In this document: in pieces, positions 9,932-62,512 of the stretch | How positions within the stretch are numbered: position 1 is the first letter of the stretch | How the letters are laid out: every line of letters begins with the position of its first letter | NCBI RefSeq assembly: GCF_002082015.1 | Contig: NZ_CP015109.1 | Location: 870,001-934,000, forward strand | DNA from: Sporosarcina ureae | GTDB taxonomy: Bacteria > Bacillota > Bacilli > Bacillales_A > Planococcaceae | Direction: 5' to 3' | Length of the DNA stretch: 64,000 nucleotides | Translations under genes and position numbers: made by a program | Notes under the pieces: model-generated | What the model saw: the letters and a program-made list of their open reading frames with translations, nothing else | Database searches by the model: none | Told to the model about the DNA's origin: nothing

Positions 9932-10290
9932 CGCTCATTCATTTTTGTAGGTGCTCATTGCTCTGTAGCACTCGTGGTCCATTGCTGGGGCGCTCATAAA
10001 TTCGTGTAGGCGCTCATTGTTTTTGCGTAATCGCTCTATTGCGTGAGATATCCGCTCTATCGTGGGACGTATCCGCTCATACTTGCGGGTTATGCGATCT
10101 ATCAGGCCGCTTAAGCGCTCATTGTCTTGCAGCACTCGTGGGCAGTCGCTGGGACGCTCATAAATTCGTGTAGGCGCTCATAATTCATGCGTAACCGCTC
10201 TATTGTTAGAGATATCCGCTCTATCGTGGGCCGTACCCGCTCATACTTACCGGTTATGCGATCAATCAGGCCGCTTAAACGCTCATAGCC
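9932..10290 (-). repeat. 21-bp periodic GAGCG repeat field A
   Basis: The core CGCTC (GAGCG on the minus strand) recurs at 20-21-bp spacing, for example at 10011, 10032, 10053, 10074, with a CGATC variant at 10095, then 10116. A higher-order unit repeats after 164 bp: CGCTCATAAATTCGTGTAGG occurs at 9991 and 10155. The field fills the gap between the divergent cyclophilin and yuxJ genes. On the minus strand one frame stays open and reads as heptads of the type xERLxxx, but no ribosome site supports a gene. The same core builds fields at 49.6 kb and 61.7 kb. Confidence 0.85.
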
Positions 10291-35208: not shown

Positions 35209-35279
35209 CCAATTCATCAAGCAACACATGAATAAATCGCAGTACAATTGGCTACTGTAGCTCTCCATACATTGATCAG

Positions 35280-35435
35280 TGTATGACAGTGTCATTCCTC
35301 TTCGAAATGACCCCAACTTGAGAAGCAGACTCTTCTCAAACTTCGGCATTGCCTCCTTTCGCTAGCGGTCATAGATGTCACTCTCTCGCTAGGTACTTAT
35401 AAACAATGCAGCCTCTACGTAAGTCTCGATATTCT
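35280..35435 (-). promoter_or_regulatory. Lysine riboswitch (L-box)
   Basis: Read on the minus strand, the conserved L-box blocks occur in order: AGAGGCTGC (35408-35416), AAGTA, GAAAGGAGGC, ATGCCGAAG (GCCGAAG at 35341-35347), GTTGGGGTCATT, and GGAATGACACTGTCA (CTGTCA at 35284-35289). The P2-P4 helices can be drawn: CTAGCG/CGCTAG and TTGAGAAG/CTTCTCAA. A terminator follows, so lysine binding should stop transcription of the NhaC-type gene. Confidence 0.85.
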
Positions 35436-49644: not shown

Positions 49645-50290
49645 GAGCGGTTGGCGGGGTGGATTGAGCGGATAGCCAGGTTCATTGAGCGGTTATCCTA
49701 ACATATTGAGCGAGATGTGCCACTTCATAAGGGCGGACATCCCAACGCGCTCCATACGCTGTAATGAGCGCATAGCCTAGCGTGTTGAGCGGTTACCATG
49801 TGGTATTGAGCGGATAGCTCGGTATATTGAGCGGTTCACACAACGCATAGAGCGGATGAACAACAACATTGAGCGGATAGCCTAGCTTATTGAGCGAGTT
49901 GCACAACTGCATAAGGGTGGACACCTCAACGCGCTCCACACGCTGTAATGAGCGCATAGCCTAGCGTGTTGAGCGGTTATCATGTGGTATTGAGCGGTTA
50001 GCCCGGCATATTGAGCGGTTCACACAACACATAGAGCAGATAAACAACAACATTGAGCGGGTAGCCTAGCTTATTGAGCGAGCTGTGCCACTTCATAAGG
50101 GCGGACACCCCAACGCGCTCCACATGCTGTAATGAGCGCATAGCTTAGCGTGTTGAGCGGTTGTCGTATAGTATTGAGCGGATAGCCCGGCACATTGAGC
50201 GGCTCACGTACCTGATAGAGCGCATAGCGCAATACATTGAGCACTCCACGCGCCACATAGAGCGCATAACCCACAACATAGAGCTTTCCA
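49645..50290 (+). repeat. 21-bp periodic GAGCG repeat field B (184-bp higher-order unit)
   Basis: GAGC(G) recurs every 21 bp over long stretches (49645, 49666, 49687, 49708; and at the end 50239, 50260, 50281). A larger unit of 184 bp is present nearly three times: the GGGYGG marker of each unit starts at 49731, 49915 and 50099. Within each unit the phase is broken once by CATAAGGG..CGCTCC. In-frame stops (TAG, TGA) occur in the + strand frames. The field fills the gap between metQ and the DAACS gene. Confidence 0.88.
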
Positions 50291-53000: not shown

Positions 53001-53257
53001 GCGCTTTCCGCTTTTGTTTCATCTAGCTGCAGATGCCAGCTCCTCGGGTCGTTTCAGACTTGCCAAAAAGGCAAAGTACGCCTTTGTGACAAGTCTTCCA
53101 ACGCCTGTCGGAGCTAAACGGCATCTTCCGCTTTTGTTTCATCCAGCTACAAGCGCCAGGCTCTCGGGTCGTTTCAGACTTGCCAAAAAGGCAAAGTGCG
53201 CCTTTGTGGTAAGTCTTCCAACGCCTGTCGAGCCTACACGGCGCTTTCCGCTTTTGT
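53001..53257. repeat. Two tandem 120-bp repeats in the metN leader
   Basis: The unit starting GCGCTTTCCGCTTTTGTTTC at 53001 recurs at 53121, and its first 17 bases at 53241, an exact period of 120. Each unit contains a hairpin (AGACTTGCCAAAAAGGC with GCCTTTGTGGYAAGTCT) and the phrase CTCGGGTCGTTTCAG. It resembles a GC-rich intergenic repeat common in Bacillales genomes. Both copies lie between the riboswitch terminator and the metN ribosome site. Confidence 0.85.
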
Positions 53258-53261
53258 TAAT

Positions 53262-53325: not shown

Positions 53326-53432
53326 CTCTCATCTATCAAAGCATTGCGCTTTGAGTGAATTGGCACCATTTCACAAATGTGACGGTTGCCGGGCTTCATA
53401 GGGCACTTCCCTCCACCGCTCTTTATAAGAGT
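53326..53432 (-). promoter_or_regulatory. SAM-I riboswitch (S-box) of metNIQ
   Basis: Minus strand reads CTCTTATAAAGAGCGGTGGA at the 5' end, then GGGAAGTGCC, GAAGCCCGGCAACC, AATGGTGCCAATTC and closes with ATGAGAG, which pairs with the first bases (P1). All S-box core blocks are present. High SAM should favour the terminator and shut off methionine uptake. Confidence 0.92.
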
Positions 53433-61209: not shown

Positions 61210-61307
61210 TATTTGTTTCATATTTAATCAGACTTTTTAAAATAAGCAATTTAATACCAAACATTCATGATTCATTGTACACTACTTACTGAATGGAGGC
61301 GATAGAA

Positions 61308-61628
61308 ATGAAAGAAATTAAAACAGCAACTGAGTTTGAAGAAATCATTGCGAGCGACCAACCAGTACTTGTGAAATTTGAAGCAGGCTGGTGCCCCGAC
61401 TGTAAGCGTATGGATATGTTTATCGATCCAATCGTTGAAAAATACGATACATACACATGGTATGAAGCGGATCGCGACGTTATTCCTGAAATTGCCGAGA
61501 AATATGAAGTGATGGGCATTCCAAGTCTGTTGGTCTTCCAAAACGGTGAGAAACATGCACACCTGCATAGCGCGTTTGCGAAATCACCTGAGCAAGTTAT
61601 GGAGTTTTTAGACGAAGTAAAGATCTAA
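61308..61628 (+). CDS. Thioredoxin-family protein
   Basis: A 106-aa thioredoxin fold with active site AGWCPDCKRMD near residue 30 and cis-Pro in MGIPSLLVFQNG. WCPDC is unlike the WCGPC of general thioredoxins, so a dedicated role is likely. ATG 61308 follows GGAGGCG; a longer ATG at 61293 overlaps the ribosome site. Divergent from fadN. Confidence 0.88.
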   Translation: MKEIKTATEFEEIIASDQPVLVKFEAGWCPDCKRMDMFIDPIVEKYDTYTWYEADRDVIPEIAEKYEVMGIPSLLVFQNGEKHAHLHSAFAKSPEQVMEFLDEVKI

Positions 61629-61641
61629 TGATGAAATGTGA

Positions 61642-61680
61642 AAATGCTGGGAACCTTTAGGTTCTCAGCATTTGTTTTAT
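61642..61680 (+). terminator. Terminator after the thioredoxin gene
   Basis: AATGCTGGGAACCT pairs with AGGTTCTCAGCATT, followed by TTGTTTTATT. Confidence 0.8.
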
Positions 61681-61702
61681 TAAGTGATTGTTGGGGTGGA
61701 TT

Positions 61703-61945
61703 GAGCGGTTATGTGGAGTGTATGAGCGGTTATGTTGCAAGTATGAGCGCTTAGCCCGCTAGATAGAGCTCTCAGCCACACACATTGAGCGGATAGCGGA
61801 GTTCATTGAGCGGTTACCCGGAAACTATGAGCGCTTAGCCACCTTTATTGAGCGCATCACCCGCTAGATAGAGCACTCAGCCACACACATTGAGCGGATA
61901 GCAAGTTTCATTGAGCAGTAACGCAGAAACTATGAGCGCCACACA
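61703..61945 (+). repeat. 21-bp periodic GAGCG repeat field C
   Basis: Twelve GAGC cores at exact 21-bp steps: 61703, 61724, 61745 and so on to 61934, without one slip. Cores read GAGCG in most units and GAGCT/GAGCA in three. A higher-order unit of 105 bp (five units) is visible: CCCGCTAGATAGAGC begins at 61755 and 61860. The field lies between the thioredoxin terminator and the C39-like gene. Confidence 0.9.
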
Positions 61946-61996
61946 CACCACACCCCCTACCAAACAACAACATGTCCCATAAAGGAGGAGTTCTTC

Positions 61997-62512
61997 ATGT
62001 CCAAATACATAGAAATACCAGGTAAATCGCAGTACGATTACGACATTGAACCACGCTACCGTCCGTCGGCTTGTGGGCCTGTTACAGCGTATGTGTTATT
62101 GCGCCATTTCTTCCCTGCCGAACAAACTCCTTCTATTAATGAGCTGTATCGAACATTAGGCAGTTCGAAGATTGGTTTGCCTACTTGGCGCTTTGTTCGT
62201 CGGTTGAACCAAATGCTCGGCTCGCAGTGGAATGTGGAAATTTGTACCCTGCAACAGGCTATGGAGCAGATTGATGATGACCGGCCGGTTGCTCTGAAAT
62301 TTGATAAGTGGTTCAAGTGCCAGTGGCGTAGTCGTTTTTCATTTGATTATCATTGGGTCGTGATGGTTGGGTATGAATATGTAGACAATCAACTGCATCT
62401 ACTCGTTCATGATCACGGTGGCAGAAATAGGGCGAGCCGTGTGCGTTCCATCCCTTATGAGCCAAATAAAAGGATTTTGACGTTTGTTAAGGTCGAACCG
62501 TTAAAATGGTGA
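61997..62512 (+). CDS. C39-like papain-fold protein
   Basis: A 171-aa cytosolic-looking protein with the layout of peptidase C39-like proteins: Cys in SACGPVTAYVLL (about residue 26), His in FDYHWVVMVGYE (about 118) and an Asp in LVHDHGG (about 139). A function in peptide cleavage is possible but unproved. Strong ribosome site AAAGGAGGAG. It converges with ypcP and overlaps its 3' end by 12 nt. Confidence 0.75.
   Translation: MSKYIEIPGKSQYDYDIEPRYRPSACGPVTAYVLLRHFFPAEQTPSINELYRTLGSSKIGLPTWRFVRRLNQMLGSQWNVEICTLQQAMEQIDDDRPVALKFDKWFKCQWRSRFSFDYHWVVMVGYEYVDNQLHLLVHDHGGRNRASRVRSIPYEPNKRILTFVKVEPLKW

Follow-up and report, generated by a model that had tools for sequence, protein, structure and literature searches.

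Phased GAGCG arrays, a dispersed intergenic repeat family of Sporosarcina ureae and its relatives

Arrays of a short GAGCG core, set in one orientation at steps of two helical turns, form a dispersed noncoding repeat family in which selection acts on the core and on its helical phase. The core is conserved and so is its spacing; the spacers between the cores are free to vary. The arrays are intergenic, often lie past a transcription terminator, and are over-represented between convergent genes. They mostly hold their place over long evolution, and both core and period differ between lineages.

Phased arrays in the window and across the genome

The window analysed here, a stretch of 64,000 nucleotides, covers positions 870001-934000 of the 3,412,428-bp, one-contig genome. 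The exonuclease encoded in the window shares 97% identity with its counterpart in Sporosarcina ureae DSM 2281, which puts the genome in the S. ureae group. A sequence-only reading of the window had described twelve GAGC cores at exactly 21 bp, and this row is confirmed at 61703-61954 (Table 1). Its cores start at 61703, 61724, 61745, 61766, 61787, 61808, 61829, 61850, 61871, 61892, 61913, and 61934; all 12 slots carry GAGC, and 9 of these carry GAGCG. Across the whole window the longest 21-bp run of GAGC reaches 12 cores on the plus strand and 4 on the minus strand; in 100 dinucleotide shuffles of the window the longest run is 1 or 2, never more. The 105-bp super-unit proposed in the same reading is real, but it is just about two copies long (81 of 105 positions match; Tandem Repeats Finder, TRF, reports 1.9 copies with 88% matches). 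Duplication of whole blocks is likewise borne out, with blocks of 105 bp in this array, 164 bp at 9995-10284, and 184 bp at 49645-50280. The typed neighbours of the 12-unit array are a thioredoxin, a C39-like peptidase, and a 5'-3' exonuclease. None of the three window arrays matches Rfam 15 at gathering score. Elsewhere in the window, a lysine riboswitch (35250-35425) and a SAM riboswitch (53326-53431) lie on the minus strand, and a 120-bp tandem duplication (53006-53258) adjoins the SAM riboswitch.

Table 1. Features of the window array, its surroundings, and the other family members in the window (window coordinates)
Feature	Position	Strand	Basis
12-unit array, 21-bp units, GAGC(G) core with variable 16-bp spacers	61703..61954	+	sequence and array scan
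105-bp super-unit (5 units), copy 1	61745..61849	+	81/105 identical to copy 2; TRF
105-bp super-unit, copy 2	61850..61954	+	81/105 identity to copy 1; TRF
G+T-rich 5' flank of window array	61674..61702	+	flank listing; mean profile of 39 arrays
A+C-rich 3' flank of window array	61955..61985	+	flank listing; mean profile of 39 arrays
Intrinsic terminator of upstream thioredoxin-like gene	61642..61673	+	14-pair stem and tail; array element starts past its T-tract
Upstream gene, thioredoxin (PF00085)	61293..61628	+	domain match
Downstream gene, Peptidase_C39_2 (PF13529)	61997..62512	+	domain match; ribosome-binding site after array flank
Second array of GAGCG family, 23 phased cores, 184-bp super-period	49645..50280	+	array scan; TRF
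Third array of GAGCG family, 10 phased cores, 164-bp super-period	9995..10284	-	array scan; TRF

A search of the complete genome and of related species, as the sequence-only reading had proposed, finds GAGCG arrays at many loci and in many relatives. The genome contains 233 TGAGCG-N15-TGAGCG pairs (79 + 154), 37 + 80 phased TGAGCG triples, and 381 phased GAGCG quadruples (177 + 204), with a count of 0 for the reversed pattern in all three cases. Individual arrays were delimited in a sample of 712 kb, mostly chosen where arrays lie and composed of a contiguous 400 kb (2.36-2.76 Mb, picked for its many matches) together with stretches around listed matches, which reach to ~2.76 Mb. This sample holds 42 arrays of 4-69 cores, leaving out one opposite-strand row at 1792565. 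Because these 42 arrays account for 310 of the 381 quadruples, the genome total is expected to be ~50 arrays; the contiguous 400 kb alone contains 182 of the 381. Four check stretches (L155-L158) contain no arrays.

The proposed 21-bp periodicity is also evident without reference to individual arrays. The commonest 5-mer at lag 21 in the contiguous 400 kb is GAGCG, with 317 same-strand pairs at this lag; distances between 6 and 130 bp other than multiples of 21 have 5.3 pairs on average. Pairs at 21k-3 bp (60, 81, 102, and 123) also stand out, with 40-67 each. Inside arrays lie 463 of the 920 GAGCG occurrences in this segment, of which arrays and their 30-bp margins make up 2.8%; outside the arrays, GAGCG occurs at Markov expectation.

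Constraint on core and spacing, and distribution among relatives

Spacing was evaluated over 41 sampled arrays with at least 5 cores, as the distances of up to 100 bp between consecutive GAGC (n=744). Exactly 21 bp separates the cores in 618 cases, and 633 distances are multiples of 21. The other 111 (15%) are off phase, most commonly at 20 bp (31 times), 18 bp (11 times), and 49 bp (9 times), followed by 22, 8, and 13 bp (6 times each). The absence of phase slips claimed for the window array thus holds there but does not carry over to the rest of the family. Spacers (positions 5-17) differ by 0.676 between adjacent units, the same value as between units of different arrays, and 584 of 692 are distinct, some being common to several units. 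Since adjacent spacers are as unrelated as those of separate arrays, the spacing is not a mere trace of recent unit duplication. Units are more alike at the even offsets 2, 4, 6, and 8 (differences of 0.567, 0.543, 0.556, and 0.497) than at odd offsets (0.63-0.68), indicating that units alternate and that expansion goes by blocks. The same GAGCG core recurs across arrays whose spacers differ.

Ten arrays could be compared with their orthologs in a relative, G002. Divergence amounts to 0.063 in the core and 0.304 in the spacers, with reference rates of 0.253 at fourfold-degenerate sites and 0.100 in array-free intergenic DNA. The core value is conditioned on the presence of GAGC in the own genome, although neutrality would still predict ~0.3 under this condition. 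By this measure the core is approximately five-fold more resistant to change than the adjacent spacers. Indels of lengths other than 21 occur at 0.035 per spacer substitution, a value inflated by the alignment of arrays of unequal copy number and only mildly lower than the 0.055 of array-free DNA. Together with the 618 of 744 distances at 21 bp, the divergence values support the earlier proposal that spacing is conserved and the bases between cores are free, with the core itself conserved as well. The sequence-only reading had counted an absence of arrays elsewhere in the genome, or random changes of spacing in relatives, against a functional 21-bp rule; neither was found.

In relatives of 76-93% identity, arrays mostly keep both place and orientation, and copy number changes. 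Between 2.36 and 2.56 Mb, same-place arrays of 3 to 45 cores are present, where covered, in G128, G140, G116, G002, G473, G094, G468, G103, G039, and G526. At locus 2450136 an array in the same orientation occurs in 10 of the 11 relatives covered; the exception, G544, has no array at any of four loci compared. The number of cores varies between 7 and 45 at locus 2426920, and between 3 and 30 at 2450136. A single orientation change is seen among the compared loci (2498734 in G116). Gaps 2446846, 2455062, and 2481006 carry an array in just one of the genomes compared, and gap 2399107 has an array in the own genome and none in G002.

In a sample of the order, GAGCG quadruples occur in 83 of 250 genomes. 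All 83 belong to a single family, where 11 of the 19 genera have them, as do 42 of the 64 same-genus genomes; the reversed-pattern control is not zero in all relatives. Outside the family, 8 of 271 genomes in a sample of the class match. One of these, G746, belongs to another family of the class and has 23 matches, including 21-bp GAGCG arrays at C2:459865-460163 and C3:192359-192510; the remaining matches look coding or low-complexity by eye. Besides the own genome, 3 of 298 genomes in a sample of the phylum match, none convincingly by eye.

Other lineages use other versions of the array. TTATGA triples occur with a 20-bp period in 21 of 65 same-genus genomes and with a 21-bp period in 23 of 65, and the own genome has 0 of either. 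GCGAG arrays with a 21-bp period are present in 6 of 8 genomes, the majority of them chosen for a high reversed control, and still other cores are found in further species. Both periods meet in some genomes, among them G490, which carries 491 period-20 TTATGA triples and 95 GAGCG quadruples; a single protein with one fixed geometry is therefore too simple. GAGCG quadruples are absent from 22 of 64 same-genus genomes, 11 of which also lack TTATGA triples (by hand count G021, G066, G076, G122, G504, G506, G507, G510, G520, G537, and G542), so the system is either dispensable or built on other cores there. A scan for 6-mers at periods of 10-110 bp over 80 loci of many species returned 20 rows, all at 20, 21, or 52 bp, where rows printed as 10 and 26 stand for 20 and 52 because doubled steps were allowed. 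These periods are close to 2 and 5 helical turns, and shuffled loci gave no rows. A looser 5-mer scan yielded one further row, at 54 bp. Noncoding arrays with a 52-bp period, ~five helical turns, are present at L066, L069, L071, and L084 (Ureibacillus / Lysinibacillus).

Genomic placement and flank composition

All 42 arrays are intergenic according to a home-made gene call; a second version of the caller placed an ORF over 4 of the 42, scoring 9-31, a level that some short real genes also have. In the window and the contiguous 400 kb, 9 of 52 convergent gaps contain an array versus 12 of 252 other gaps (Fisher p 0.004), figures that correct those from a gene call missing the C39 gene (10/53 versus 11/251, p 0.0009). 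Of 48 array sides that face a gene 3' end, 26 have an intrinsic terminator between gene and array; of 20 sides that face a gene 5' end, 2 have one. These counts omit arrays with a flank >900 bp, and the right side of the window array was wrongly taken as a 3' side in them. The T-tract ends 7-56 bp before the array in 21 of the 26 terminator cases. Four arrays (L147, L151, L152, and L153, at ~1.351, 1.970, 1.995, and 2.076 Mb of the own genome, G000) lie immediately beyond the 5S gene of an rRNA operon, each antiparallel to its operon. The skew of the sampled stretches places the origin at about 1.9 Mb and the terminus at about 0.18 Mb. In 32 of the 42 arrays GAGCG lies opposite to the leading strand (p 0.0009, with arrays taken as independent).

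Six sequences of the locus of the 12-unit array (the window and L039-L043) contain arrays whose units differ and whose phase is the same. Four relatives (L044-L047) have only 58-64 bp here, comprising the terminator and a ribosome-binding site, with no array. No sigma-70-like promoter was found between the thioredoxin terminator and the C39-like gene (window 61642-61997). The C39-like gene may therefore depend on transcripts that read through the array, and these observations disfavour strict insulation at this locus, as an insulator would cut the gene off.

The arrays are set in DNA of polar composition. Over 60 bp, G+T is 0.70-0.75 before the array, falls through the array, and is 0.32-0.39 after it (39 arrays), which means that both flanks of the 39 arrays in G000 are G+T-rich over ~60 bp when read toward the array. 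Upstream G+T exceeds downstream G+T in 38 of 39 arrays (a partly different set), alike in convergent, codirectional, and divergent gaps. Transcription of the flanking genes is an unlikely cause of this composition, because it holds in every gene context. A dependence of the polarity on array orientation was also considered and rejected, since a G+T-then-A+C order is unchanged by reverse complementation. At most a faint version is seen in 147 array-free gaps (0.52 and 0.42 in convergent ones). The polarity is weaker in other genera (G+T 0.587 upstream and 0.452 downstream; 19 of 23 arrays) and absent around six GCGAG arrays. Among arrays of other dialects at 11 loci, the pattern is kept by 18 of 21 flanks, the off-contig flank of L050 being dropped. 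Flanks pair no better with their own partner than with the flanks of other arrays (permutation p 0.69). Between the own genome and G002, the 45 bp next to arrays diverge by 0.307, like spacers, versus 0.045 in DNA >150 bp away (202 sites). Within 75 bp of arrays, 29 A/C-to-G/T changes stand against 33 G/T-to-A/C changes. These near-equal numbers indicate a composition close to equilibrium and do not by themselves separate mutation from selection.

Readings of the arrays and comparison with known systems

A core and a helical spacing that are kept as the rest drifts, at dozens of loci and in many species, would be the footprint of a trans-acting factor. Our preferred reading, which we hold tentatively, is that the arrays are rows of a short core two helical turns apart that would serve as a protein-bound boundary behind terminators. 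A candidate sequence-specific DNA-binding protein, with lineage dialects, would contact the cores on one face of the helix, as is expected if core and 20/21-bp spacing are constrained and spacers are free. It would occupy neighbouring cores side by side; binding is probably cooperative, and dimers might span the alternating units. With less certainty, the resulting nucleoprotein track might form a boundary past terminators that blocks read-through or antisense transcription, or it might anchor the chromosome. Such a boundary is suggested by where the arrays lie, namely past terminators, in convergent gaps, and at the ends of rRNA operons, though more weakly than the spacing suggests one-face contacts. 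The number of units would be free to change, allowing copies to expand and shrink by block recombination. A bolder form of the boundary reading is possible but not probable: a previously undescribed docking-track system of Planococcaceae, in which a rapidly re-specified protein reads the core every two turns, along rows of up to dozens of units, at ~50 intergenic sites, including rRNA operon ends. It would form phased filaments that keep transcription units apart or give the chromosome its organisation, the dialects drifting between species with the protein. Searches of an open-access library, which lacks most subscription papers, returned no paper that appears, from title and abstract opening, to describe such arrays. 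If the arrays prove to mark boundaries or to organise the chromosome, they would be a landmark of a kind new to bacterial chromosomes, and their lineage dialects would make it possible to trace how DNA recognition evolves.

The main rival, which we consider unlikely, holds that the arrays are minisatellite-like or selfish and functionless, with blocks amplifying wherever they are harmless and the core kept by the amplifying machinery or by ancestry. The swings in copy number at 2426920 and 2450136, the block super-periods of 105, 164, and 184 bp, the neutral-looking sites past terminators, and the patchy presence within the genus would all follow. Such an origin fits poorly, however, with a core that recurs among unrelated spacers and changes five-fold less readily than they do, and with the retention of positions and nearly all orientations in most of the relatives compared. 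Selfish arrays would still be satellite-like DNA with an unusual rule. Flank composition raises the further idea, which we consider improbable, that the arrays are bidirectional Rho-dependent terminators, a polymerase leaving the array either way meeting an A+C-rich, G-poor rut site. A rut site is about 60 bp long, the genome encodes Rho, and the own-genome flanks do supply a C-rich, G-poor exit segment. In the first set of 39 arrays, G+T makes up 70-75% of the 60 bp before the array and A+C 61-68% of the 60 bp after it; in the second set the polarity recurs in every gene context, with the one exception given above. This account leaves core and 21-bp phase unexplained. The composition on which it depends is also missing at the six GCGAG arrays, weaker in other genera, faintly present in array-free convergent gaps, and, by its reverse-complement symmetry, independent of array orientation.

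The remaining alternatives carry little weight. It is very doubtful that the arrays are recombination stations, that is, Chi-like clusters or sites of repeated breaks at which G+T-rich 3'-ending strands on both sides favour RecA. Chi of B. subtilis is AGCGG, GAGCGG is found in roughly every second unit (39-61% have G at position 5), and both flanks are G+T-rich toward the array. Yet position 5 is variable, most listed units of other dialects lack AGCGG, and AGCGG outside arrays is near Markov expectation (418 versus 388 on the leading strand, 253 versus 244 on the other); the 32 arrays opposite to the leading strand face the wrong way for Chi. Slighter still is the chance that these are iteron-like elements of the chromosome, which would bind the replication initiators of plasmids and thus exclude plasmids. 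Iterons also consist of direct repeats, each ~20-22 bp long, and their TGAG-type cores are similar; phased direct repeats at ~two turns are what the arrays contain, but no PLSDB plasmid matches the window array by blastn, a weak method for such spacers. Descent from heptad-repeat protein genes (21 bp being 7 codons) is already largely refuted and scarcely credible. The GAG-CGN frame is the most open, with a stop in 11.3% of 583 units, ORFs are predicted over 4 of 42 arrays, an array in the L070 relative lies inside a 181-codon ORF, and some matches outside the family look coiled-coil-like by eye. Shuffling the units by column, however, hardly changes how often a stop occurs (13.6%, sd 1.2). 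A helical rule is favoured over a codon rule because relatives use 20 bp, stops interrupt arrays, and many slips are not multiples of three and break the frame. The partly open frames may nonetheless produce spurious gene calls.

Viral origin and RNA structure were also tried and rejected. Three phased TGAGCG cores are found in 73 viral contigs, of which 46 have <4 phased GAGCG and 18 have them inside an ORF of at least 100 aa; among the remaining 9, six are homogeneous or low-complexity, L231 and L275 are the same sequence, and L276 has four cores only. One window array searched against phages by blastn gave no match. For 30 arrays of at most 520 bp, mean fold z is -0.53 in sense and -0.44 in antisense (single arrays, -4.8 to +3.0).

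Known repeat systems share individual traits with the GAGCG arrays. Plasmid iterons and operator arrays are direct repeats ~two turns apart with a short conserved core in one orientation, bound by initiator or partition proteins; the GAGCG arrays differ in lying at dozens of chromosomal loci, in the unrelatedness of neighbouring spacers, and in cores that change between lineages. Like minisatellites (VNTR), they are tandem and head-to-tail, vary in copy number between relatives, and show block duplications, but their neighbouring units have only the core in common, and unlinked loci carry this same core. REP/BIME elements are intergenic, lie behind terminators and between convergent genes, and have lineage-specific versions. 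The arrays resemble REP/BIME and RAYT systems in all these respects, but they lack a hairpin, as the fold values show, are direct rather than inverted, and form long phased rows. With CRISPR they share a constant part and varying spacers; here, however, the constant part is 4-5 bp (not >20 bp), the unit is 21 bp, and some spacers are shared. The TAACTGA direct repeats of Beggiatoaceae are reported to be abundant, short, and intergenic, with many sets in a bacterial genome (PMC4679880); they differ from the GAGCG arrays in core and in lineage.
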